A DNA stretch of 33,019 bases, from assembly GCA_007134485.1 (NCBI GenBank), contig SLKT01000015.1:1-33019 (forward strand). The letters run 5' to 3'. Shown here in pieces: positions 1,232 to 24,820 of the stretch. Each line of letters starts with the position of its first letter. Position 1 is the stretch's first letter. Both the position numbers and the translations under genes were made by a program. Under the pieces are notes generated by a model. That model did no database searches. It was given only the letters and a program-made list of their open reading frames with translations, and had not been told where the DNA came from. The stretch comes from Wenzhouxiangella sp. (lineage in GTDB: Bacteria; Pseudomonadota; Gammaproteobacteria; Xanthomonadales; Wenzhouxiangellaceae).

Positions 1232-2494
1232 ATGCACATGCCCCCAATGAAGGTTCAATTGTTTTTCCTGGCGCTGTCGGCCATCACGGTCTGTAGTACG
1301 CTTCATGCTGATGACCTGGTGGTCGATACACTGGACGATGCCGGTCCCGGATCACTGCGAGCAGCCATCGAGTCTGCCAATAGCGAACCGGGCGCCCAGG
1401 TCATCGTGTTCGACCCCTCCGTTCACGGCGGCGCCATCGTTTTGCAATCCAGCCTGCCGGAGATCACCGACGATATCGAGATCATCGGACCGGGCGCGGA
1501 ACTGCTCAGCATTGATGGCAACAACAGCCATCAGATCATCTCGATCTCCGCCGGAGTGACCGCTATCCTTTCCGGCCTGACGCTCACCCAGGGAAGCGAT
1601 CAACTCGGTGGTGGCGCGATCGTGAATGAAGGAGAACTGACGCTCTCCGCAGCCACACTGATTGGCAACAAGGCTGAGTTCGGGGGTGGTGGCGCCATCG
1701 ACAATGTGTTCGGCACGCTCACGCTGATCAATTCAGTTCTTGCCGATAACGAAGCCAACTTCGGTGGGGCATTATCGAATTTCGAAGGCTCCGTGTTGAT
1801 CATCAATTCAACGCTGACCGGAAACTCGGCACTTCAAGGCGGCGCCATCGACAACACGGGTCTGCTGGTGATCGAAGCCAGCACCCTTCACGCCAACCAG
1901 GCCGAGATCGGGGGCGGCATCGAAAATGCCGGATCGGTGGACATCATCAATTCCACACTGTCCGGAAACCAGGCGCTGGAAGACGGGGGTGCAATTGACA
2001 ACTTCGGCGGCATTCTGCACCTGCTGTTTGTCACTTTCGCCGCCAATGAAGCCGGTCTTGACGGTCAGGCGATCTGGACCGGACCTGATATTGATGACGA
2101 CGAAGTGATGGCCAGGAATGTCATCATTGCCGGTGATGGCGAAAACGATTGTTACATCGACGAACCTGATTCATGGACCACAGGCGGGCACAACCTGGCC
2201 ATTGACCCCGGCTGTACCGGCTTTCAGGTGATCGATATCGAAGACCTGCAACTTGGACCCCTGGCCGATAACGGCGGCCCCACGCTCACCCACGCTTTTG
2301 GTCCCAACAGCCTGGCACTTGACACAGCAAACGACTGCACCGGCTTTGATGGTCTGACCAACGTAGGCCAGGATCAACGCGGCACACCCAGGCCCCAGGG
2401 AGATCACTGCGATATCGGCGCTTACGAGCGTATCTTCGAGGATGAAAAGGAAGATGTCATCTTTGCCGATCGCTTTCGGAGACTCAGTCCCTGA
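1232..2494 (+). CDS. Secreted right-handed beta-helix (choice-of-anchor Q type) protein
   Basis: The protein has 420 residues. ATG 1232 is preferred because AAAGG (1220-1224) sits 7 nt upstream; ATGs at 1214, 1238 and 1247 are alternatives. The N-terminus is a signal peptide (basic, then VQLFFLALSAITVCSTLHA). A cap of the type LDDAGPGSLRAAIESAN follows, with repeated beta-helix rungs rich in GGAI/N and NSTLxGN (for example GGAIDN, INSTLTGNSA, INSTLSGNQA). The late segment, with LGPLADNGGPTLTHA and DQRGTPRP, is typical of choice-of-anchor Q proteins. It ends in VIFADRFRRLSP, which resembles the IFxDxFE-type tails of secreted gammaproteobacterial proteins and may be a sorting tail (inference). 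The gene is convergent with the sigma-54 activator gene, and their ends overlap by 11 nt. A paralogous family member lies at 3469-4809. The fold is fairly sure; the ligand is unknown. Confidence 0.88.
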   Translation: MHMPPMKVQLFFLALSAITVCSTLHADDLVVDTLDDAGPGSLRAAIESANSEPGAQVIVFDPSVHGGAIVLQSSLPEITDDIEIIGPGAELLSIDGNNSHQIISISAGVTAILSGLTLTQGSDQLGGGAIVNEGELTLSAATLIGNKAEFGGGGAIDNVFGTLTLINSVLADNEANFGGALSNFEGSVLIINSTLTGNSALQGGAIDNTGLLVIEASTLHANQAEIGGGIENAGSVDIINSTLSGNQALEDGGAIDNFGGILHLLFVTFAANEAGLDGQAIWTGPDIDDDEVMARNVIIAGDGENDCYIDEPDSWTTGGHNLAIDPGCTGFQVIDIEDLQLGPLADNGGPTLTHAFGPNSLALDTANDCTGFDGLTNVGQDQRGTPRPQGDHCDIGAYERIFEDEKEDVIFADRFRRLSP

Positions 2495-3494
2495 CCGGTA
2501 GATGGTCCAGATGGTGATCCTTGATCAGGCGATAGAGCTGGGCGCGGGAGACTTCCAGTTGCGTGGCGGCCAGGTTGACATTGCCACCGGCCGCTTGCAG
2601 TGCGCGTTCAATGGCCTTGCGTTCGGCGCTCTTGCGACACAAGCGCAAAGACTGTACCGGATCAGGTTCGGGCGCCGATGTACATGTTTCTCCCTGCATG
2701 GAAAAACCAAGGTCGGAACCCGATATGGACCGGCCATTGCCCATCACCAGGGCCTGCAGAACGCGGTTTTTCAGCTCGCGAACATTGCCCGGCCAGGCAT
2801 GCTGATTGAGCGCCGAAACCGCGCTGTCATCAAGCGAGCGTGCATCGACCTCGTACTGGCCTGCAAACCGTGAAATGAAGCATCGGGCCAGAGCGACAAC
2901 ATCTTCACCGCGCTCACGCAATGCCGGGGTGTGAATCCGCAGGGCACTGAGCCGGTAGTAAAGATCATTTCGAAAGAGGCCGAACCGGCACGCGCTTTCC
3001 AGATCGGCATGGGTTGCAGCCACGATCCGAACATCAGCACGAATGGGTTTACAACTCCCCAGGCGCTCGAAACTGCCCTCCTCCAGGAACCTCAGCAGCG
3101 TGACCTGGTTATCCAACGGCAAATCGCCGATTTCATCCAGCAGCAAGGTTCCACCCTCGGCTGATTCGATGCGACCGATGTTGCGTCGATCGGCGCCGGT
3201 AAAAGCACCGCGTTCATAGCCAAACACTTCGGATTGAAACAGCGAATCGGGCAAGGCGGCGCAATTGACCGCAATGAAGGGCCCGGCAGAACGCCGCGAA
3301 TAATGATGCAACAGATTGGCGACCAGTTCCTTGCCGGTGCCGGTTTCGCCGGTGATCAACACCGGCGCATCAATCGAAGCCACCCGCTCTATGACTTTGC
3401 GCAACTTCACGATGGCCGGACTGGTGCCGATCAATTCAGGGCATGTCCGTCCCATGATGGTTAGCGTTTCAGTCACGGCAGCTCGCCTTCTCAC
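2484..3494 (-). CDS. Orphan sigma-54-dependent activator (AAA+ plus Fis-type HTH, no receiver domain)
   Basis: The protein has 336 residues from GTG 3494, chosen because AGGAGG (3506-3501) is 6 nt upstream. The start lies 26 nt inside the end of the preceding beta-helix gene, which implies translational coupling. It has Walker A GETGTGKE, an intact GAFTGA loop for contacting sigma-54, Walker B GGTLLLDEIGDL, the AWPGNVRELKN segment and a C-terminal Fis-type helix-turn-helix (AATQLEVSRAQLYRLIK). Only about 25 residues precede the AAA+ domain, so there is no receiver, PAS or GAF sensor, as in PspF. It should remodel sigma-54 RNA polymerase at promoters that it binds, and its activity is probably set by abundance or by a partner protein. 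It is the last gene of the operon with the carboxypeptidase-regulatory-like and beta-helix genes. Targets are not evident from the sequence. Confidence 0.9.
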   Translation of the reverse strand: MRRRAAVTETLTIMGRTCPELIGTSPAIVKLRKVIERVASIDAPVLITGETGTGKELVANLLHHYSRRSAGPFIAVNCAALPDSLFQSEVFGYERGAFTGADRRNIGRIESAEGGTLLLDEIGDLPLDNQVTLLRFLEEGSFERLGSCKPIRADVRIVAATHADLESACRFGLFRNDLYYRLSALRIHTPALRERGEDVVALARCFISRFAGQYEVDARSLDDSAVSALNQHAWPGNVRELKNRVLQALVMGNGRSISGSDLGFSMQGETCTSAPEPDPVQSLRLCRKSAERKAIERALQAAGGNVNLAATQLEVSRAQLYRLIKDHHLDHLPVRD

Positions 3495-4809
3495 TGGACT
3501 CCTCCTGCACAATCGTCAGGTGAACTCCACCGCGCGCCTGCCAGGCGACATCACAGGGCAGTTGTATCTCGACCGAGACAAGGTCGAGTCCGTCCAGCAC
3601 AAGATCCACATCAGCAAGTCCCAGATCACTGTCCAGATGCAGGAGGGTTGGCTGGCCAAAAACTTCGGCATGAAAGTGAACCGGGACCGGATGACGTGCG
3701 ACCGCGGCCAGCTCGATGGCCGCGCGCAGTGGACAATCGTTCAGAGCTTGCCCGGTGCAGACCCGCAAGCCGTTGTCGGTCAGTGAGTTGACTTCGAAGC
3801 GAGTCGGCAGCGGTCCCTGTCGTTCGAATGCGCCAAGATCGGCATAGCCTCCGGCAAAACGCGGGTCACCATTGCCGCGCTGGTCCCACACCAGCACCTT
3901 GCCATCGGCATCCAGTGAAGCCGAGCCATCCGCCAGATTAACGGCCGGACTGAGACCACTCAGCGGCAAGGTGGGCGTCGGCCCGTTGTAATGGCCCAGC
4001 GCCTCGAAACGCGGATCGGCATCCAGCAACGGACGACCACATCCCCATTCGCTGCCCTGAATCAGGTTGCTGACGTTGTCGGCCGGCGACAGATCGACAT
4101 GCACACACTGGATGGGCTGGCTGCCGGCGATGATGGAATTGGCCAGATACAACTCCCCCATGCTGTAAAGACCGGCACCCAGGCCGGCCAGATTGTCGGC
4201 CATTGTCACATGAATCAATCGCATACTGCCCCCCTGCCCGGCCAAGGCGCCCCCCTCCAGGGCCGTATTGCCCAACAGAGTGGAATTGACCACAATCAGT
4301 TCGCCGCCGACATTGAAAATAGCGCCGCCCTGGACGGTGGCCTGATTTCTCATCAGGGTCACACTGTCCACGACCAGGCGTCCGCGATTGAAGATGGCAC
4401 CGCCGTAATCAGAAAGCCCTCCAGTCAGGGTAACGCCACTCAGGATCAGCTCACCCCCCGGTGCGATCTCGAAAATGCGCTCGCCATTGCCGTCCAGAGT
4501 CATCCCGTAGGCCTGCCAAAGCAACCCACGGACAAAGCCGTTAATCATCACTCGTGAACGGATTTCAGGCAGCGGGCTATCGAGCCGGATCGTCACCGGC
4601 TCGGAAAATGGACTCCCGCGGTCACCGAGATGAATTCGCCAGACATGCTCTGGATGGTCCGCGGCAATTTCCAGTGCCCTGCGAAGACTACCCTCGCCAC
4701 TGTCGGTCGCTGAAGTCACAACCAGCTCCGAGGTGCGCGCATTGGCATCCAGTCCCGGCCCACCGATTGATATCACCACAATGATGATTGTCCAAAACAT
4801 GATTTTCAT
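3469..4809 (-). CDS. Secreted beta-helix (choice-of-anchor Q) protein with an aborted second repeat domain
   Basis: The protein has 446 residues from ATG 4809, where GGGAGA lies about 8 nt upstream; a TTG 30 nt further up is less likely. The signal peptide is MKIMFWTIIIVVISIG and continues to about ANA. A cap (SATDSGEGSLRRALEIA) precedes parallel beta-helix rungs (LSGVTLTGG, YGGAIFNRG, QGGAIFNVG, VNSTLLGNTALEGGA), then the choice-of-anchor Q segment ending DLGAFERQ. From about residue 345 a second cap of CSLREA type begins (VNSLTDNGL...CPLRAAIELA). The protein stops roughly 100 residues later with no further rungs. The stop lies within the N-terminal codons of the sigma-54 activator gene (26-nt overlap). 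It is 44 nt downstream of the carboxypeptidase-regulatory-like gene in the same operon. It belongs to the same family as the product of 1232-2494. Confidence 0.87.
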   Translation of the reverse strand: MKIMFWTIIIVVISIGGPGLDANARTSELVVTSATDSGEGSLRRALEIAADHPEHVWRIHLGDRGSPFSEPVTIRLDSPLPEIRSRVMINGFVRGLLWQAYGMTLDGNGERIFEIAPGGELILSGVTLTGGLSDYGGAIFNRGRLVVDSVTLMRNQATVQGGAIFNVGGELIVVNSTLLGNTALEGGALAGQGGSMRLIHVTMADNLAGLGAGLYSMGELYLANSIIAGSQPIQCVHVDLSPADNVSNLIQGSEWGCGRPLLDADPRFEALGHYNGPTPTLPLSGLSPAVNLADGSASLDADGKVLVWDQRGNGDPRFAGGYADLGAFERQGPLPTRFEVNSLTDNGLRVCTGQALNDCPLRAAIELAAVARHPVPVHFHAEVFGQPTLLHLDSDLGLADVDLVLDGLDLVSVEIQLPCDVAWQARGGVHLTIVQEESSEKASCRD

Positions 4810-4853: not shown

Positions 4854-6599
4854 TCAGGGCTCCAGCCTCGCCAGGGTGATCACCAGGTCCTGACCATGGC
4901 CACTGCCCAGGGTATGGAGCAACCTTGCGCTGGCATGTCCCTCGGCACGCACCGTCAGCGTGTACCCGGGCGCTGCCAGATTGGAAAAGGCGAAATATCC
5001 ATCGATATCCGTGCGTGTCTCGCGCTGGGACTGACTGAACACATCACCGAACTGCATGCCCCACTGTGCAGTCACCCGCGCTCCAGGCACGGGCTGACCT
5101 CCGGAACTCAGAACCTGACCGAACAGCCAATGCTCTCCCCAGTCCAGAACCACATCCACATATTGGTTGGCGCCGGGCTGCAGAACCAGGCCGCGCGCTT
5201 CCAGGCGCGGCAGGGAGGTGGTCATGAACAGCAGATCACCCGCTTCGATTTCACGGATACTGAATCCCCCGTAGGCATCGCTGATCAGTTGCAGCGGGAA
5301 GTGATCTGAAGCTCCAGTACTCTTGACCCGAACCGAAAATCCCGGCAAGACACGGCCCTCGGGATTGACCAGGGTGCCGTTGAGTTCGCCGGAGGAGCGC
5401 CGGCGCAATCGCAGGTCCAGAACCTCATCGTTCCTTCCGATCGAAACCCATCGCGGTTCCAGTGGCGCGTAGTCACGATTGCCGTCGACGCCAATCTGGT
5501 AGGAACCATTGCTCTCGACCCTCTCGAACGCGTAGACACCAAGGTCGTCGGTCAGCGTCCGTCGAAAGCTGCCCGGGCGTGAGGCATTCAGCCAGACTGT
5601 CACCCCGGAGACCACCTCATTGAACGGCCCACTGACCAGACCTTCGACCCGGACAGTCGAAGTCCTGGACTTCAAGGTCACATCCAGTTGCATTGAGGAC
5701 GATGGGCCCTGGGTCTGAGTGCCGGAAAGTTGCGCACGGTGCTCACGAAATTGCGGATGGCTGAATGTCAGCACCGGCGCCTGACTGGCCTGACGACGTT
5801 CGACCACGGCCCGGTAACTGCCATCCTCGGCCGAACGAGTTTCCTCTCCCCCACCCAAGGCGCGAATGCGAGCGTCGGGAATCGCCTGTCCCGATTCATC
5901 GGTCACCCGTCCGGCGACGACGATCTCGCCCTTGCCTTGCAGGTGCAGCTCCAGGCTGCCGATGCCGGTCCGAACTCGCTGACTCAGCGAGTGATGACGC
6001 TCGCCACCAAACGCGCGCACTTCGTACTCACCAGGGACGAGCCGGTCGAATCGAAACATGCCGAGGCGGTCACTGCGGGCCGAGCGACCCGGCATCGATT
6101 CCGTTCGAGCGTCAATCCCGATCAGCGAGACTTCGATCCCCGGCAAGACATCCCCGGCCTGATCGAAAACGGTGCCGGCAACGGATTCGATGGATGGATC
6201 TTCGTCGGCTTCGGCCTCGCCACTTCGAGCCGCAAGTGTTCCGGGACTGTCCGGTCGTGCCCGTTCGCGTTCCGAGGGTGTTCGTCCCGGACGTGCTGGC
6301 GAAGAATGACTTGAAGATGAGTGAGGGTCTGACGAATCGGCTGCTGAACGGGACGGTCGGGATGATGACTCCGACGACTCCTCACGGGCATCCGGCAGTT
6401 CGTGCTCCACCAACTCTTCGAAATTCAGGGGTTCAGGAGTTTCCGAGTGTGGCTGAACGCCAATGCCCACGCGTTCCGGTGCGCACATCAGGACAAGAAA
6501 CAGCGCAACAATCGAAGTCAGGACGAGCGCGGACACTCGAACCCATCCGCAAGCCACACACTGGCCGGTGAGCCTGCCAACACACATCACGCCAACCAC
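4854..6599 (-). CDS. Membrane-anchored protein with about five carboxypeptidase-regulatory-like (Ig-like) repeats
   Basis: The protein has 581 residues from GTG 6599, which has GGAGG 9 nt upstream. GTG 6635 is possible but lies in a small hairpin (CCACAG/CTGTGG, 6632-6647). A single transmembrane helix (VSALVLTSIVALFLVLMC) is near residue 30. A long Ser/Pro/Arg/Glu-rich spacer follows to about residue 140. Then come about five CarboxypepD_reg-like units with the pattern GxVxDxxGxxLPGxxV...D..G.F.F..L.PG.Y (for example VAGTVFDQAGDVLPGIEVSL and GQVLSSGGQPVPGARVTA). The likely topology is a short N-terminal tail inside and repeats in the periplasm. No peptidase domain is present. It is the first gene of the leftward operon with the beta-helix and sigma-54 activator genes, behind the CRP-like promoter at 6717-6746. 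A scaffold or binding role is inferred. Confidence 0.82.
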   Translation of the reverse strand: MVGVMCVGRLTGQCVACGWVRVSALVLTSIVALFLVLMCAPERVGIGVQPHSETPEPLNFEELVEHELPDAREESSESSSRPSRSAADSSDPHSSSSHSSPARPGRTPSERERARPDSPGTLAARSGEAEADEDPSIESVAGTVFDQAGDVLPGIEVSLIGIDARTESMPGRSARSDRLGMFRFDRLVPGEYEVRAFGGERHHSLSQRVRTGIGSLELHLQGKGEIVVAGRVTDESGQAIPDARIRALGGGEETRSAEDGSYRAVVERRQASQAPVLTFSHPQFREHRAQLSGTQTQGPSSSMQLDVTLKSRTSTVRVEGLVSGPFNEVVSGVTVWLNASRPGSFRRTLTDDLGVYAFERVESNGSYQIGVDGNRDYAPLEPRWVSIGRNDEVLDLRLRRRSSGELNGTLVNPEGRVLPGFSVRVKSTGASDHFPLQLISDAYGGFSIREIEAGDLLFMTTSLPRLEARGLVLQPGANQYVDVVLDWGEHWLFGQVLSSGGQPVPGARVTAQWGMQFGDVFSQSQRETRTDIDGYFAFSNLAAPGYTLTVRAEGHASARLLHTLGSGHGQDLVITLARLEP

Positions 6600-17893: not shown

Positions 17894-17942
17894 CCACTGA
17901 AAACACCATGCATGTGCCTGCAAGCCGCGCGGCTGCCGACGC

Positions 17943-17955
17943 GAGGAAGAGGGAG
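17943..17955 (+). promoter_or_regulatory. Strong ribosome site that sets the start of the GGDEF/EAL gene
   Basis: GAGGAAGAGGGAG lies 7 nt before ATG 17963. The frame is also open from ATG 17912, but that ATG has no comparable site, so 17963 is the preferred start. Confidence 0.65.
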
Positions 17956-17962
17956 TACACAA

Positions 17963-20900
17963 ATGGCCTGTTGTGGCGATGATCCAGGGCTTGCAGATGG
18001 ATGCCGGATACCGGATAGAGCTGGTCTGTTCACCCTATCGAGCCTGGTGACAACGACGCCGGCGTGGTCTGCGGAGTCCGCGACCTCGGCCTCGGTCATT
18101 CATACCCCGCTCGTTGTCGCCGTCCTGGGGCTGCTGGCCCTGATCTTGCTCTGCGCGGCACTTCTTCTGTGGCGTTTGCTCTCTCGTGCACGGCGACAAA
18201 CCCAACGCATTCAGGAGCGGCTCGCGCAGTACAAAAACATGGCCGGCAATCTTCCGATCGGCTTGCACGAGGTGGTCGATGACATTGATGCCGGCCCCAT
18301 GTTTGTTTATATCAACGACCGTGCGCTGGAGTTGATGGGCGTCTCGCGCCTCGAGGCCGAGAATGATCTCTACACCGCGTTCTCCAACGTGCACCCGGAC
18401 GATCGCGAGCGGGTCATGCAGACGCATGAATCGGCGCGCAAGAAAAATATCCCCTTGATGATCGAGGCGCGCTTCATCGTCGAGGGTCGTCAGCGCTGGC
18501 TCAGGATCGAGTCCTGGCCGCGCGAAGTCAACGGTCATCTATCGTGGCCTGGTTGCACCACTGACGTGACGGATCGACGCGAGGCCGAACTACAGTTCCG
18601 CGTACTGTTCGAACAAAGCCCGTTGGCAATCATCTTGCACGATCCGGAAACCGGGGCATTGCTCGACGCCAATCGCGCGGCCTGGGAGTCGTATGGATTG
18701 AACTCCTTCGAAGAATTGCGCCAGCGGAACATGTGGTCGGATCCACCTTATTCCGAAACCGATGCGCTCGCCTTGATTCGTCAGGCCGCCGAAGGGCGTG
18801 CCCAGCGCTTCGAGTGGTGCAGCGTGGATGTCCATGGACAGCCATTCTGGGAACTGGTCAGCCTGATGCCGGTGACCATCGACGGACGCCTGAGAGTATT
18901 TTCTTCAGCGGTGGATATTTCCGAGCTGCGCGCCTCTCAACAGAGACTGGCCGAACGCGAGAGCCTGTTGAGCGCCATGTCCGAGCTTGCCACCGTGGGC
19001 GGCTGGTCAGTGGATTTGCAAAGCGGAGAGCTGACATGGACCAAGCAAACGTATCGACTGCACGAGGTGCCGGTGGATACCAATCTGTCGGTGACCGATG
19101 CGCTGGCGTTTTATCCACCTGAAGACCGATCATTGCTTGAGCGGGCCCTCGCGCGTGCCCGGACGCAGGGCGAGCCTTGGGATCTGACCCTTTCGATAAC
19201 GACCGCCAACGGTCAGCAACGCCTGACCCGTTCGATTTGCCGACCGGTCAAACAGGATGGAAAGGCAGTCCAGCTGGTCGGTGCTGTCCAGGACGTCACC
19301 GATTTGGTAGAGGCGGAACGTCGCTTCCGCGCCATCTTCGAACAATCACCGGTCATGACCCTGATCCACGATGCCGAAACCGGCGAAATACTTGACGCCA
19401 ACCAGCAGGCCTGGTTGGGCTGGGGGTATGCGTCGATGGAAGACCTTCAGGCAGCCAAGCCACACACTCTGATAGGGCCTGAATACGGTGAAGAGCAGGC
19501 GCTGGAGAGAGTACGCCAGGCGGCCCAGCGCAGCCGTGACCGTTTCGAGTGGTGTTCACGGCACGCCGATGGTCACGTCATGTGGCATGACGTAACGCTG
19601 ACGGCAATTCAACTCAGCGGACGTGCCTGCGTGCTGGCTGTGTGCCTGGATATCACCGAACGCCGCGCCTCGGAAGAGCGCCTGCGCGAGAGCGAGGCAC
19701 GGTTCCGCCGCATTCTGCAAGACGTGGACGGAGTGTCGGTGCAAGGATACGACGCTAATGGCCAGGTTCGCTACTGGAATCGTGCATCGGAAGAATTGTA
19801 TGGCTATTCAGCGGCCGAAGCCATTGGCAGCAACTTGCTCGACCTGATCATCCCTCCGGAAATGCGTGACGACATGCGCGAGAACCTTGAGCGCATGCTC
19901 GAAGGCAAGGGCATCGAAAACGGCGAACTGGAGTTGATGCGCAAGGACGGCAGTCGGGTTCCGGTCTACTCCAGTCATACCGTGCTGCGCCGGCCTGATG
20001 GCGAGCCCGAGTTGTTTTGTGTTGATATCGACTTGAGCGAGCGCAAGGCGCACGAGGACGCGCTGGTTCGCATGGCCAACTATGACGCCCTGACCGGCCT
20101 GCCGAATCGGCGGTTGATGGGGGTACTGCTGGAACAGATGATGATTCGGGTTCGGCGCTCGCAAAGTTCGTTTGCATTGTGCTATCTCGATCTCGATGAC
20201 TTCAAGCCCATCAATGACGCCGTGGGCCATGAGGTCGGCGACAGCGTGCTGATCGAGGTTGCACGGCGTCTGCGCCGGTTGGTTCGTGGTAGTGACCTGG
20301 TCGCTCGTCTCGGTGGCGATGAATTCGTGTTGGCGCTGGACAGCATCGGCGATGGCCCGGCGCTTGAGAAAAGGCTTCGCTTCATCCTTGACGGTATCTC
20401 ACGTCCGATCGAACTGGATGGACGCCGCTTTCAGGTGCGCGGGAGCCTTGGCGTCACCCTTTACCCGCAAGACGACGCCGATCCGGACACCCTGCTTCGC
20501 CACGCTGATCAGGCCATGTATCGGGCCAAGGCTTCGGGGCGCAATCAGTTCAGCCTGTTTGACACGGAAATCGAGGCACGGGTCAGTGAGCAGCGGGAGC
20601 GATTGCGCGAAATTGAAAAAGGCCTGGACCAGGGTCAGTTCCGGCTGTATTTCCAGCCCAAGATCAGGATGGCCAGCGGCCAGGTGGAGGGCTTCGAAGG
20701 CCTGGTGCGATGGCAGCACCCCGAGTCCGGTGTGCTGGAGCCGGGCCGTTTTTTGCCGGTGCTGGATCGCACCGAGCTGGAATCGCGATTCGGCGACCAT
20801 GTGATCGAACAAGCCCTGCAGCAGCTTCAGCAGTGGCTGCAGGACGGTCTGGATCTGAGCTTGAGCGTCAACATCTCCGGCCCCCATCTCTTGAGCGAGG

Positions 20901-21361
20901 ACTTTGTCGACAGGCTGCAGGGCTTGCTCCGTCGATATCCGGACGTGCCGCCCGCGCGCCTGGAACTGGAGATCGTCGAAAATGCCGCGGTCACCGATCT
21001 GGAGCGAGCCGTTGCCGTCTTGCTGGCGGTCCGCAAACTGGGACTTCAGATCTCACTGGACGATTTTGGCACCGGCTATTCCTCGCTCAGCCACCTGCGC
21101 AGCCTGCCGGTCGATGAAGTCAAGATCGACCAGAGCTTTGTACGCGATATGCTGACCGACCTCAATGACTACAATATCGTGCGCAGCGTGATCGGACTGG
21201 CCGACGCCTTCGGCATGCGGGTGGTGGCAGAAGGCGTGGAAACACCAGAACATGCCGATGCGCTGCGAAACCTGGGCTGCGAGATCATGCAGGGCTACAC
21301 CTTCGCCCGCCCGATGCCGGCCGAAGAGGTCGTGGACTGGCTGTCCGATCAGTCCACGTAG
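17963..21361 (+). CDS. Membrane GGDEF/EAL cyclic-di-GMP protein with five PAS domains
   Basis: The protein has 1132 residues and is predicted to make and/or break cyclic di-GMP. A transmembrane helix lies at about 49-72 (LVVAVLGLLALILLCAALLLW). Five PAS domains follow at about 95-208, 212-322, 335-447, 455-566 and 580-693. PAS2 and PAS4 share FEQSP, HDxETGxxLDAN, RQAA and RFEWCS, so they look like an internal duplication. The GGDEF domain is intact at 784-788 with a product-inhibition I-site RGSD at 775-778. In the EAL domain the signature is EGL (912-914), but ExLxR, SVNIS, ELEIVEN, DDFGTGYSSL, KIDQSF and VAEGVET remain, so phosphodiesterase activity is plausible. The input signals are unknown. 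It ends 15 nt from the convergent response-regulator gene. Confidence 0.95.
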   Translation: MACCGDDPGLADGCRIPDRAGLFTLSSLVTTTPAWSAESATSASVIHTPLVVAVLGLLALILLCAALLLWRLLSRARRQTQRIQERLAQYKNMAGNLPIGLHEVVDDIDAGPMFVYINDRALELMGVSRLEAENDLYTAFSNVHPDDRERVMQTHESARKKNIPLMIEARFIVEGRQRWLRIESWPREVNGHLSWPGCTTDVTDRREAELQFRVLFEQSPLAIILHDPETGALLDANRAAWESYGLNSFEELRQRNMWSDPPYSETDALALIRQAAEGRAQRFEWCSVDVHGQPFWELVSLMPVTIDGRLRVFSSAVDISELRASQQRLAERESLLSAMSELATVGGWSVDLQSGELTWTKQTYRLHEVPVDTNLSVTDALAFYPPEDRSLLERALARARTQGEPWDLTLSITTANGQQRLTRSICRPVKQDGKAVQLVGAVQDVTDLVEAERRFRAIFEQSPVMTLIHDAETGEILDANQQAWLGWGYASMEDLQAAKPHTLIGPEYGEEQALERVRQAAQRSRDRFEWCSRHADGHVMWHDVTLTAIQLSGRACVLAVCLDITERRASEERLRESEARFRRILQDVDGVSVQGYDANGQVRYWNRASEELYGYSAAEAIGSNLLDLIIPPEMRDDMRENLERMLEGKGIENGELELMRKDGSRVPVYSSHTVLRRPDGEPELFCVDIDLSERKAHEDALVRMANYDALTGLPNRRLMGVLLEQMMIRVRRSQSSFALCYLDLDDFKPINDAVGHEVGDSVLIEVARRLRRLVRGSDLVARLGGDEFVLALDSIGDGPALEKRLRFILDGISRPIELDGRRFQVRGSLGVTLYPQDDADPDTLLRHADQAMYRAKASGRNQFSLFDTEIEARVSEQRERLREIEKGLDQGQFRLYFQPKIRMASGQVEGFEGLVRWQHPESGVLEPGRFLPVLDRTELESRFGDHVIEQALQQLQQWLQDGLDLSLSVNISGPHLLSEDFVDRLQGLLRRYPDVPPARLELEIVENAAVTDLERAVAVLLAVRKLGLQISLDDFGTGYSSLSHLRSLPVDEVKIDQSFVRDMLTDLNDYNIVRSVIGLADAFGMRVVAEGVETPEHADALRNLGCEIMQGYTFARPMPAEEVVDWLSDQST

Positions 21362-21376
21362 GTGCAGGGTTATTCA

Positions 21377-22759
21377 CTAAGTTTCTTCAAGCCAGCGATA
21401 CAATGTGCGCCGGCCGACGCCGAGCAGGGCGGCGGCACGGCGCTTGTTGCCGTTGACCCGTTCAAGGACGTAGTTGACATAGCGACGCCTGAGCTCATCG
21501 AGGCTGGGCAGCATGTCCCCTTCAAGCAACTCGGCGGGAAAGGCCGCAGCTTGCGCTCCGGGCGCGGCCTGGCTGGCGGGAGCCTTGCGTATCCGTTCCG
21601 GCAGGTGTTCCGGTCCGATTTCCTCGCTCTCGCAAAAGGTGACCGCCCGCTCCATGGCATTTTTCAATTCACGGACATTGCCCGGCCAGGGATAGGCATG
21701 CATGGCCGCCTGGGCCTTCTCCGAGAGCCGCCTGGCCGGACGATCCCGCGCGGCGGCAAAACGAGCCAGGAAACTCATTGACAACAGGTCCAGATCCTCG
21801 CGCCTTTCCCGCAGGGGCGGCACTTCGAGCTGGAACGCCTCGAGGCGATAGTACAGATCCTCGCGAAATTCCCCGGCGCTCACTTTTTCGGTCAGATTGA
21901 TATTGGTGGCCGCAATCAGACGGACATCGACAACATGCTCTCGGTCAGCACCGACCGGGCGAATTCGACCGTCCTGCAAGGCGCGCAGCAACTTGGCTTG
22001 TAGCGGAGCCGGCATCTCGCCAATCTCATCGAGAAACAGGGTGCCGCCATCGGCCTCGCGAAACAGTCCGGCGCGCTCACGTTCTGCCCCGGAAAAAGCG
22101 CCCTCGGCGTGGCCGAAAAATTCACTCTCCAGCAACTCGGCCGGCACACCTGCACAGTTGACGGCCAGGAATGGTTTCTCGGCTCGCGGACTTTCGGCGT
22201 GAATAGCGCGTGCCACCAGGTCCTTGCCGGTCCCCGACTCGCCGCTGACCAGCACCGGGCCATCAGCGCGCGCGATCTGGGTGATGCGATCGAACAACAC
22301 GCGCATGGGCCGACTGCTGCCCTCGATATCATGAAATGCATCGCGCTTGAGCACCTTTCGGAAGCGTTGCACCTCGTCCTGGAGCTTGCGATTGGCCAGC
22401 AGTCGCTCGACACTCAAGGTGAAATGATCCATGTCCAGCGGCTTGGTCAGGAAATTATCAGCTCCGGCCTTGAGTGCGGCAACGGCCTTGTCGACGGTAC
22501 CAAAGGCGCTGATCATCAAGACCGCCGGGGCGGCATGTCGAGCGCGCACCTGTTCAAGCAACTGCAATCCGTCGACCCCGGGCAGTTGCAGGTCGCTGAC
22601 CACGACATCCGGTTCGAACTCGTCCATTGCCTTAATGGCCACCTCGGCACTGGAATGAGATTCAACCCGATGGCCCTCCGACTCCAGCTCTTCGACCAGC
22701 AGCTCTGCCAGGCTGTGGTCATCCTCGACCACCATGATCTTGTGTTTGACTTCACTCAT
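21377..22759 (-). CDS. NtrC-family sigma-54-dependent response regulator
   Basis: The protein has 460 residues from ATG 22759, which overlaps the kinase stop by 8 nt. The receiver domain carries the acidic pair Glu12/Asp13-Asp14, the phospho-acceptor Asp56 (VVSDLQLPG), Ser84 and Lys106 (TKPLD). The AAA+ domain has Walker A GESGTGKD, the sigma-54 contact loop as GAFSGA (a Thr-to-Ser variant), Walker B GGTLFLDEIGEM and YPWPGNVRELKN. It ends with a Fis-type helix-turn-helix (RAAALLGVGRRTLYRWLEE). It is cotranscribed with the kinase and divergent from the DUF4168 gene, whose sigma-54 promoter is the obvious target. The inverted repeat at 24202-24223 is a candidate binding site. The signal and the exact family name are not identifiable from sequence. 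Confidence 0.96.
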   Translation of the reverse strand: MSEVKHKIMVVEDDHSLAELLVEELESEGHRVESHSSAEVAIKAMDEFEPDVVVSDLQLPGVDGLQLLEQVRARHAAPAVLMISAFGTVDKAVAALKAGADNFLTKPLDMDHFTLSVERLLANRKLQDEVQRFRKVLKRDAFHDIEGSSRPMRVLFDRITQIARADGPVLVSGESGTGKDLVARAIHAESPRAEKPFLAVNCAGVPAELLESEFFGHAEGAFSGAERERAGLFREADGGTLFLDEIGEMPAPLQAKLLRALQDGRIRPVGADREHVVDVRLIAATNINLTEKVSAGEFREDLYYRLEAFQLEVPPLRERREDLDLLSMSFLARFAAARDRPARRLSEKAQAAMHAYPWPGNVRELKNAMERAVTFCESEEIGPEHLPERIRKAPASQAAPGAQAAAFPAELLEGDMLPSLDELRRRYVNYVLERVNGNKRRAAALLGVGRRTLYRWLEET

Positions 22760-24188
22760 GTTCAAGCACCAGGTCGAAACAGCCCCCGCCCAACTTGCCG
22801 CTGCGACTGACCCGGATCTCCGCTCCGTGCTCGTCAGCTACAGTGCGAACAATCGCCAACCCAAGCCCGGTACCCTGGCCATCTTCCCGGGAGCTGTGAA
22901 AAGGCTCAAAGATATGCTCATGCTGTTCATCCGGGACACCCGGACCATCGTCTTCTATGCGAATCACGACTTGGTCACATTCGGAAAATGCTGAAACCCT
23001 GACAGTCGTCTCGGCGGCCTGGATGGCGTTGCGTACCAAGTTGAGCACTGCATGTTCCAGGCGCACTTCGAATCCGGAAGCATGCAGGTTGTCATCGACC
23101 GGAATCAGGTCGAGTTTGATTCCGCGCGCCTCGGTCTGGGGAGACGTGGAGCTGGCGACCTGCTGCAGCAAGCGGCTGATCGAAACCTCGGAACGCTCGC
23201 GTTGATCGCTGCGCACAAACTCCATCAACTGGCGGATCAACTGCCGGGTTCGCAATACCTGACGACGCATGCGCTCCAGTCTTCGCCGACTGTCGTCATC
23301 GATGCCATTTCGCTGCAGCAGACGCCGTGCATCACCATCAATCACACTCAGAGGCGCGCCCAGTTCGTGGGCCACTCCGGAGGAGAATCGACCCAACGCC
23401 GCCAGACTCTCCTGCTCACGCAAACGTTCAGTCATCCTGATGTGCTCATGATGCTTTTCATCAAGCTCGTCACGCATGCTCTGGATGGCATCAAGCATGC
23501 GGTTCAGACCACGACCCAGGGCCGCCAATTCGTTGGGACCACTAACCTGGGCCCGGTGTGCCTGCTCACCGGATTCAACCCGGCCCATGCTGTCAAGCAA
23601 TCGATCCACGTGGCGAACCACCGCAAAACGATGACCAACCAGCAAGACCACGAACATCAGCAGCATTACCGCTGCAAATGCCCACCAACCGCGATCACGA
23701 ATCTCGCGCAGGCGCTGGGCAATCTCGCTTTCCTGACGAACGACCTGCAGCAACCCTTCGATCCGACCGGTTGGCGCGGTCAATGGCACGAAATACGAAA
23801 AGACTTCCTCACCGGCCAGTTCTGCATAACGCCCCAATTCCTCGCCCAGGGCCACCACTTCGGCGGCCTCGGCCTGCTCCTGCCAGCCGGGACGCGCCTC
23901 GCCCGCGGTGGCGACCCGGCGACCGCTGGCATCGTAGACATAAGCCCCATAGACACGCCCGATATCGAAAACCGCATCAAGAGATTCCTCGATGCGATCC
24001 ATGTCACGATCCAGCAAGGCCTGCTGCACGGGCACCCGCATCGCTCTGGCTACCAGCTCGATTTCCTTTTCCAGTCGATGCTCGACCAGATTTTCAACCG
24101 TATGGAAACTCACCCAGACCAGCAGGCTGGCCAGCAGGGTCAACGGCAGAAAGATTTGCAGAATCAATTGAATTCTAAGACTGTGCAT
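22752..24188 (-). CDS. Membrane sensor histidine kinase of the sigma-54 two-component system
   Basis: The protein has 478 residues from ATG 24188. TM1 is at about 9-28 and TM2 at about 168-187. Between them is a periplasmic sensor of about 140 residues (VARAMRVPVQQALLDRDMDRIEESLDAV...). A HAMP-like segment and a short coiled coil follow. The H-box is FSSGVAHELGAPLSVI with phospho-acceptor His274. The N-box is NLVRNAIQA, G1 is DDGPGVP, the F-box is IFEPFHSS and G2 is GTGLGLAIV. The layout resembles NtrB/ZraS-type kinases that feed sigma-54 regulators. No ribosome site is evident. The candidate promoter would put the transcript start at or next to the ATG, so leaderless translation is possible. 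Confidence 0.96.
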   Translation of the reverse strand: MHSLRIQLILQIFLPLTLLASLLVWVSFHTVENLVEHRLEKEIELVARAMRVPVQQALLDRDMDRIEESLDAVFDIGRVYGAYVYDASGRRVATAGEARPGWQEQAEAAEVVALGEELGRYAELAGEEVFSYFVPLTAPTGRIEGLLQVVRQESEIAQRLREIRDRGWWAFAAVMLLMFVVLLVGHRFAVVRHVDRLLDSMGRVESGEQAHRAQVSGPNELAALGRGLNRMLDAIQSMRDELDEKHHEHIRMTERLREQESLAALGRFSSGVAHELGAPLSVIDGDARRLLQRNGIDDDSRRRLERMRRQVLRTRQLIRQLMEFVRSDQRERSEVSISRLLQQVASSTSPQTEARGIKLDLIPVDDNLHASGFEVRLEHAVLNLVRNAIQAAETTVRVSAFSECDQVVIRIEDDGPGVPDEQHEHIFEPFHSSREDGQGTGLGLAIVRTVADEHGAEIRVSRSGKLGGGCFDLVLEHE

Positions 24189-24195
24189 GAGCCCT

Positions 24196-24224
24196 ATTCT
24201 ATGTCACATGCGCCATCCTGACAC
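24196..24224 (-). promoter_or_regulatory. Candidate promoter of the kinase-regulator operon, overlapped by the inverted repeat
   Basis: On the minus strand there is -35 GTGTCA (24224-24219, 4 of 6), a 17-bp spacer and -10 TAGAAT (24201-24196, 5 of 6). The predicted start is near 24189, next to ATG 24188. The inverted repeat 24202-24223 covers the spacer and most of the -35, so its ligand would be expected to repress this promoter. The match is only moderate. Confidence 0.4.
24202..24223. promoter_or_regulatory. Inverted repeat TGTCA-N12-TGACA, candidate enhancer (UAS) for the response regulator
   Basis: Two perfect 5-bp inverted half-sites are centred near 24212, about 103 bp upstream of the predicted sigma-54 start of the DUF4168 gene. 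That is the usual distance for NtrC-type upstream activator sites. It also overlaps the candidate kinase promoter. The half-sites are short, so the site is inferred from symmetry and position. Confidence 0.45.
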
Positions 24225-24257
24225 ACAATTCGTTCAAATCTCGCGAAGCACACGACT

Positions 24258-24270
24258 CAACTTATTGATT
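24258..24270 (-). promoter_or_regulatory. IHF binding site (perfect consensus)
   Basis: The minus strand reads AATCAATAAGTTG, a full match to the IHF consensus WATCAANNNNTTR. It lies between the candidate enhancer (24202-24223) and the sigma-54 promoter (24289-24305), centred about 52 bp upstream of the predicted start. IHF commonly bends DNA in this position at sigma-54 promoters. With even base use such a match is expected about once per 65 kb per strand, though the AT-rich gap raises that chance. Confidence 0.65.
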
Positions 24271-24288
24271 TTATTGGTTGTCGCCGCT

Positions 24289-24305
24289 TTGGCACGAAAC
24301 ATGCA
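24289..24305 (+). promoter_or_regulatory. Sigma-54 (RpoN) promoter of the DUF4168 gene
   Basis: TTGGCACGAAACATGCA matches the RpoN consensus TTGGCACG-N4-TTGCA with one mismatch, and keeps the invariant GG (24291-24292) and GC (24303-24304) separated by 10 nt. The predicted start is near 24316, giving a leader of about 38 nt to ATG 24354. It is divergent from a kinase-regulator pair whose regulator belongs to the sigma-54 activator family. Confidence 0.85.
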
Positions 24306-24353
24306 TTTATGTCTCTGCAAGTTTTACAATCATCACTCCAAGGAGGAGTACTC

Positions 24354-24728
24354 ATGAAAATTCGCAATATCTTCGCACTGATCGTATTTTCGTCTGCCCT
24401 GGTCTTCGGTGGCCAAGCCATGGCACAGGACTACCAGATGGAACAGCAGGAACCGCCGCAAACCGATGTCTCTGAGCAAGAGCTGCAGCAGTTCGCCGAA
24501 GCTCAGACTCAGATTTCGGAGATCCAGCAGGACTTCGCCGGCCGTCTGCAGGACGTGGAAGACCCGGAAAAGGCCCACGAACTTCAGGTCCAGGCCAACG
24601 AAGAAATGACCGAGGCGGTTGAAAGCGCTGGTCTGGATGTAGACTCGTTCAACGATATCGCCATGGCGATTCAGAACGATCCGGAATTGCAGCAGCGTTT
24701 GACCACCATGCTGCAAGACGGTCAGTAA
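24354..24728 (+). CDS. Small secreted DUF4168 family protein
   Basis: The protein has 124 residues from ATG 24354, with AAGGAGGAG (24340-24348) as a near-ideal ribosome site. The signal peptide is MKIRNIFALIVFSSALVFGG and ends QAMA, giving a mature protein of about 100 residues in the periplasm or outside. The mature part is Gln/Glu/Asp-rich and looks helical (ELQQFAEAQTQISEIQQDF, DVDSFNDIAMAIQNDPELQQRL), matching the DUF4168 pattern. It has no Cys and a single His after the signal peptide, so it is unlike the metal-binding ZraP. It is preceded by the sigma-54 promoter with IHF and enhancer sites, followed by a strong terminator, and is thus a single-gene unit probably controlled by the divergent kinase-regulator pair. 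The biochemical role is unknown. Confidence 0.9.
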   Translation: MKIRNIFALIVFSSALVFGGQAMAQDYQMEQQEPPQTDVSEQELQQFAEAQTQISEIQQDFAGRLQDVEDPEKAHELQVQANEEMTEAVESAGLDVDSFNDIAMAIQNDPELQQRLTTMLQDGQ

Positions 24729-24791
24729 AAGCATCTGACCTGGCCCGAGTCGCCTGCCCCGGCGGCTTCGGAGCCAACCCAAACCGGATGG

Positions 24792-24820
24792 CCGGGCCCG
24801 CTTGCGGGCCCGGTTTTTTT
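24792..24820 (+). terminator. Rho-independent terminator of the DUF4168 gene
   Basis: A perfect 10-bp stem (CCGGGCCCGC at 24792-24801 and GCGGGCCCGG at 24804-24813) has a TT loop and is followed by seven T (24814-24820). It is 64 nt after the stop at 24728 and 9 nt before the end of the convergent deaminase gene. The minus-strand side lacks a T run after the stem, so it mainly serves the plus strand. Confidence 0.92.

Follow-up and report, generated by a model that had tools for sequence, protein, structure and literature searches.

PrsK-PrsR of the PEP-CTERM systems is an NtrC-family kinase and regulator pair that controls exported proteins. In the ZraP-ZraSR system (HydHG) of E. coli and Salmonella, a sigma-54 regulator switches on a divergently encoded small exported protein, and zraSR has a sigma-54 promoter of its own (excerpts of PMC4987338). 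For QseE-QseG-QseF (GlrK-GlrR), it has been described that the periplasmic partner protein QseG can control the kinase (excerpts of PMC6075780), and the site of the QseEGF-type regulator has been given as TGTC-N10-GACA (excerpts of PMC4987338). The locus analyzed here, from Wenzhouxiangella, recalls each of these systems in part, and it appears to be best explained, with a probability of about 0.8 in our estimate, as a dedicated sigma-54 module in which an NtrC-type two-component system has a DUF4168 gene as its main target.

The DUF4168 locus and its control region

The window, i.e., the whole stretch of DNA that was analyzed, is contig C62 of 33,019 bases within a 3.35 Mb genome. The DUF4168 gene (24354-24728, plus strand) encodes 124 residues that match PF13767 at E 2.7e-18 (67.2 bits against a gathering cut-off of 25.8), beginning with what appears by eye to be a signal peptide and continuing into a four-helix mature part. 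Behind the gene lies a terminator-like hairpin with a T run (24790-24820, plus strand; an 11-pair stem at 24790-24815 with the T run behind it), which suggests a single-gene transcript. On the minus strand, the genes for a sensor histidine kinase of 478 residues (22752-24188; periplasmic Cache/PAS-like sensor, HAMP, HisKA and HATPase_c) and for a response regulator (21377-22765; receiver, sigma-54 AAA+ and Fis-type HTH) overlap at their ends, and the regulator matches PF00072, PF00158, PF25601 and PF02954, all above cut-off, which places it in the NtrC family. Gene order and Pfam domains thus agree with an earlier description of the locus from its letters alone (hereafter the sequence-only reading) as a small secreted DUF4168 protein divergent from a kinase and a sigma-54 activator, with the export signal judged by eye. 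A PAS-GGDEF-EAL protein of 1149 residues is encoded at 17912-21361 of the window, convergent with the regulator gene.

The start codons of the kinase (24188, minus strand) and DUF4168 (24354, plus strand) genes enclose the three motifs that the sequence-only reading had reported, each of which was recovered where it had been placed. TGTCA (24202-24206) and TGACA (24219-24223) are separated by a 12-base gap, and the enhancer, the predicted upstream activating site of the regulator, spans 24203-24225 on the plus strand with the conserved core CACATGCGCCATNNTGACACA at 24205-24225. The predicted IHF site AATCAATAAGTTG (24258-24270, minus strand) is an exact match to WATCAA-N4-TTR and so bears out the perfect consensus claimed for it. 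In the predicted sigma-54 -24/-12 promoter TGGCACGAAACATGCA (24290-24305, plus strand), ten bases stand between GG (24291-24292) and GC (24303-24304), which is the GG-N10-GC spacing that had been asserted, and the transcript of DUF4168 is predicted to start near 24316. The window contains one TGTCA/TGACA palindrome (0.05 expected) and three matches to the IHF consensus (0.39 expected); the loose pattern TGGC-N8-TGCW occurs eight times (4.0 expected), so the sigma-54 motif is by itself unremarkable there. The strict pattern TGGCACG-N4-TTGCW is matched nowhere in the window, since the site has ATGCA as its -12 box.

The factors that such a promoter calls for are encoded as well. An RpoN gene was found in the same genome and in 39 of the 43 genomes of the family Wenzhouxiangellaceae, including all 25 with a completeness of 90% or more and a contamination of 5% or less; the search gave no match in G019 and G023, two assemblies that carry the module and are 73% and 65% complete. 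G014, G020 and G037 have two RpoN matches each and the other matching family genomes one. Genes for both IHF alpha and IHF beta are present in the genome of the window, above their curated cut-offs.

The Pfam matches of the kinase sensor are weak: 25 of 26 relatives match CHASE8 and 23 match sCache_3_2, and for the window every such match falls below cut-off. A structural model of the sensor is of moderate quality (mean pLDDT 70) and resembles the WalK, LapD-type and CitA sensors (Foldseek E 6e-6 to 8e-4). The sensor thus seems to consist of one periplasmic domain of the Cache/PAS-like kind. The AlphaFold2 model of DUF4168 has four helices with a confident core (pLDDT at least 90 for 83 of 124 residues). 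Against PDB structures its best match reached only E 1.2, and a search by sequence returned only two designed or chimeric proteins (E 0.31 and 0.6); these results give no ground for claiming a chaperone-like fold. At E 0.001 the only other Pfam match of DUF4168 is a marginal one to NOG1_N.

Specificity of the enhancer and reach of the regulator

Among 29 sites from the family, the enhancer is conserved as GNCACATGCGCCATTATGACACA or, taken as a block, as G-N-CACATGCGCCATTATGACACA with the G two bases ahead. The TGTCA-N12-TGACA element of the sequence-only reading survives in part: its right arm TGACA is strongly conserved, the right part TGACACA and the middle being nearly invariant, whereas the left TGTCA arm is for the most part unconserved, with T at the third base in only 5 of the 29 sites, and the conserved form is CACATGCGCCATTATGACACA. 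What remains of the symmetry is a 22-base inverted repeat, an imperfect one, which would fit a Fis-type dimer.

Within the family, this sequence is found mainly beside DUF4168 genes. The genome of the window has a single copy at up to three mismatches, and the 43 family genomes have 37 (against two matches for the reversed pattern as a control), of which 32 lie before DUF4168. One adjoins the kinase in G022, where the contig stops 10 bases past the enhancer (L040), and the other four all carry three mismatches and are all in genomes without DUF4168; three of these four (L176-L178) showed no match to kinase, regulator or DUF4168. At up to two mismatches, all of the 31 family sites adjoin DUF4168, with the single exception of the one beside the kinase at a contig end; weaker sites could escape the patterns used. 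Kinase and DUF4168 also occur together across the 43 genomes (both in 28, kinase alone in one, DUF4168 alone in one, neither in 13), with a Fisher p of 5e-9 that overstates the association because the genomes are related. The kinase-only genome is G022, in which the contig end cuts the locus; in G007 the DUF4168 gene is diverged, and both the kinase and the promoter are missing. Three DUF4168 copies that lie away from a kinase (L003, L063 and L070, the last two taken as G024:C184 and G030:C101) have an enhancer, an IHF site and -24/-12 sites of their own, as does the tandem second copy at L014; this would be expected of a regulator that acts on DUF4168 genes irrespective of their position. By these patterns, DUF4168 appears to be the main target class in the family and probably its only one.

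NtrC-type regulators often control several targets, and this one could be a broader envelope-stress or metabolic regulator for which DUF4168 is merely the most conserved target while others have degenerate sites. We consider this unlikely, and it is compatible with the dedicated module. In its favor is a class-wide search for the enhancer pattern, with 11 matches (control 1) that comprise the site of the window, three linked DUF4168 loci, one place some 540 bases ahead of a DUF4168 gene that is unlinked, and six places not beside DUF4168; six sites off DUF4168 and one in the control indicate that the pattern at one mismatch is unspecific across the class. Among these six is a site in G568 that follows, at a distance of 1.2 kb, a kinase-regulator pair of more remote relationship (33% and 48% identical). 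The 12 kb fetched there contain no DUF4168, from which it follows that a relative of the pair can exist without a neighboring DUF4168 gene. Several findings oppose the broader role: the best sigma-54 match within 400 bases past that G568 site falls short of a good one (17.5 of 23.5), the genome of the window has a single site, the 31 family sites are restricted as described, and kinase and DUF4168 co-occur. Within L241 (G568:C1:285000-297000) the distant pair is at 1387-4288 and the enhancer-like site at 5516. The enhancer-like site about 540 bases before DUF4168, in G421:C1, is too far away for the usual geometry.

The module is wider than the window and recurs across the family and beyond. 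At the level of the order, DUF4168 is nearly confined to the family (31 of 299 genomes, of which 29 belong to the family), and in the class it is found in 35 of 369 genomes. Of 54 class places outside the window, 52 were fetched with up to 12 kb around each, and the remaining two (G583:C1:352057 and G457:C3:123100) are inside other fetched stretches. The regulator (51-58% identical) adjoins DUF4168 at 11 of the 52 places, in 11 further genomes, and the kinase (36-42% identical) is present at 10 of these linked places, seven of which have kinase, regulator and DUF4168 co-directional and three divergent, the eleventh having a divergent regulator alone; L085, from the Ectothiorhodospiraceae, has the entire divergent layout. 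A sigma-54 site was found at nine of 11 linked versus eight of 41 unlinked places (Fisher p 2.5e-4), the rate in shuffled sequences being 14 of 2600. An enhancer matrix derived solely from the family outscored every one of 40 shuffles at seven of 11 linked versus three of 41 unlinked places. At L121 the enhancer is equaled by one of 40 shuffles, at L120 it was not detected, and at L122 and L131 neither sigma-54 site nor enhancer was detected.

With no linked kinase-regulator system at 41 of the 52 class places, a tie to sigma-54 is not a property of DUF4168 in general; a good sigma-54 site is nonetheless present at several of these unlinked places, some of which are perhaps served in trans. 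The fetched stretches of L086 (Salinicola) and L087 (Vreelandella) contain no kinase or regulator match and no good sigma-54 site. The DUF4168 genes of L146, L150 and L154 have a common TGGCAYGATCGATGC site, and at L150 and L154 this gene is preceded by a co-directional gene for another kinase (about 30% identical). A phylum-wide sample of 398 genomes added 26 DUF4168 loci, five of them (L216, L218 and L228-L230, all from the same class) with a divergent kinase; the flanks of 1.5 kb in this sample would let co-directional cases escape. The best sigma-54-like site at these five has GC in L216 and L218, whereas GC is replaced by GA at L228 and L229 and by GG at L230, in promoters that otherwise share the layout.

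Register of the three sites in family promoters

The geometry of the control region was compared in 34 of the 36 DUF4168 places in the family (a contig-end fragment, G028:C126, and G013:C173 were omitted), and 31 upstream regions, which three further loci bring to the 34, served for dinucleotide shuffle tests. The three sites recur in a fixed register across the 34 promoters. GG-N10-GC, on whose conservation the sequence-only reading had staked its promoter, is kept in 31 of them, and the enhancer, at up to four mismatches, in 33, in all of which its distance to the -24 box is 83-86 nt. In 30 of the 34 promoters, an IHF site with no more than one mismatch places the outer edge of WATCAR 19-20 nt before the -24 box, with 20 sites oriented as in the window and 10 opposite; no IHF site at that edge was found in L007, L013, L022 and L029. 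The center of the DNA bend would lie near this outer edge of WATCAR, and the keeping of the edge while the orientation flips suggests selection for a bend at that point. L035 (G013:C205) has a perfect enhancer and IHF site, yet GG replaces GC at -12, and a relocated second copy in the same genome, L013, keeps an enhancer with three mismatches and has GA in place of GC at -12, which makes it a decayed set. With an IHF site that flips about a fixed edge and an enhancer held at about 85 nt upstream of the -24 box, these promoters offer a natural test bed for sigma-54 geometry.

The shuffles give a measure of how far these recurrences exceed expectation. TGGC-N8-TGCW was present in 26 of the 31 upstream regions versus 0.2 expected, the exact IHF consensus in 19 versus 0.59, IHF at up to one mismatch in 28 versus 8.1, and the enhancer at up to four mismatches in 30 versus 0.02.

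The same enhancer block might be kept chiefly as the promoter of an autoregulated kinase operon, with control of DUF4168 being secondary. On the minus strand the block reads TGTCATAATG, which resembles an extended -10 element, an extended -10-like TGNYANRRT is found on the kinase strand at 24 of 26 divergent loci, and a weak sigma-70-like pair overlaps the block in the window. The window itself, however, reads TGTCAGGAT, a poor -10, and the block is kept both by DUF4168 copies without a kinase (L003, the second copy of L014, L063 and L070) and where kinase, regulator and DUF4168 are co-directional (L123, L125, L126 and L133); its fixed spacing to the -24 box likewise suits the DUF4168 side. 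We therefore regard a primary role in kinase expression as improbable. The block may serve both roles, e.g., in self-repression of the kinase operon: in the window 14 bases lie between the end of the enhancer and the start codon of the kinase, so that binding there could, speculatively, repress the operon. A sigma-54 promoter (TGGC-N8-TGCW) directed towards the kinase was found at none of 26 loci (L014 and kinase-less loci left out), and the system thus seems not to amplify itself through RpoN. Chance resemblance of the motifs within an intergenic gap, in whose favor the commonness of the loose sigma-54 pattern in the window might be cited, is contradicted by the family conservation and the shuffle tests and has a negligible probability, the case being made by conservation.

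A putative sigma-54 module and its described counterparts

The dedicated module with DUF4168 as its main target can be pictured as follows. An envelope signal would activate the inner-membrane kinase via its Cache/PAS-like periplasmic sensor, and the kinase would phosphorylate the NtrC-type regulator, which is predicted to bind GNCACATGCGCCATTATGACACA about 85 nt upstream of the -24/-12 promoter. IHF, bound between enhancer and promoter, would bend the DNA such that the regulator could touch and remodel the RpoN polymerase, which would then make a short single-gene transcript for the exported DUF4168 protein. That the regulator drives DUF4168 through RpoN had been proposed in the sequence-only reading, and the proposal gains support, at the level of comparative genomics, from the fixed geometry in 33 promoters, co-occurrence, the restriction of the enhancer, the relocated copies and the RpoN and IHF genes encoded in the genome. 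The module seems real and conserved, and apparently it is without a name: a literature search that covered few subscription papers found no paper naming DUF4168 or PF13767 and none on sigma-54 in Wenzhouxiangella.

ZraP has been reported to feed back on ZraSR, and by analogy the DUF4168 protein might be a periplasmic envelope accessory protein that perhaps feeds back on the kinase, a suggestion we make more guardedly than that of its transcription by RpoN. It is possible, with the odds in our judgment somewhat against it, that the DUF4168 proteins discussed here constitute a new periplasmic accessory class that both answers to and feeds back on a dedicated Cache-sensor/sigma-54 system, as a three-part envelope-sensing module distributed over many gammaproteobacterial families and with an origin independent of ZraPSR and QseEGF. 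Conserved control DNA provides a handle on the role of the DUF4168 family: with a single conserved target class in the Wenzhouxiangellaceae, a recognizable DNA code and a one-gene transcript, the function of these proteins becomes tractable via the signal of the kinase.

The likeness to PrsK-PrsR consists of an NtrC-family pair and an exported protein target. Membership was rejected on the NCBIfam models (regulator 363 versus a cut-off of 503, kinase 81 versus 300), and no PEP-CTERM sorting signal was seen by eye in DUF4168. With ZraPSR, as far as the excerpts describe it, the locus has in common the divergent arrangement of a small exported protein and a kinase plus sigma-54 response regulator, along with the logic by which the regulator would switch on that protein; the sensor here is Cache/PAS-like. 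It is not a member of that system, because kinase, regulator and target each differ: the regulator scores 352 against the ZraR model (cut-off 760), the kinase scores 125 against ZraS (cut-off 479) over the kinase core only, and the DUF4168 target is unrelated, having no Pfam match to another exported-chaperone family at E 0.001 and neither His nor Cys among its invariant or nearly invariant residues. Unlike zraSR as portrayed in the excerpts, the present kinase has no sigma-54 promoter directed towards it (0/26 loci). QseEGF (GlrK-GlrR), in the parts of the accounts cited above, has in common with this locus a sigma-54 regulator, sites of the TGTC/GACA type and a partner of the kinase in the periplasm, as the DUF4168 protein may be here. 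Assignment to GlrR was rejected (regulator 341 versus an NCBIfam cut-off of 763), and the present TGTC and GACA arms are 14 bases apart, with strong conservation in the right arm only. Whereas the targets of QseEGF are a small RNA or rpoE, the predicted target of the present system is the exported protein itself.
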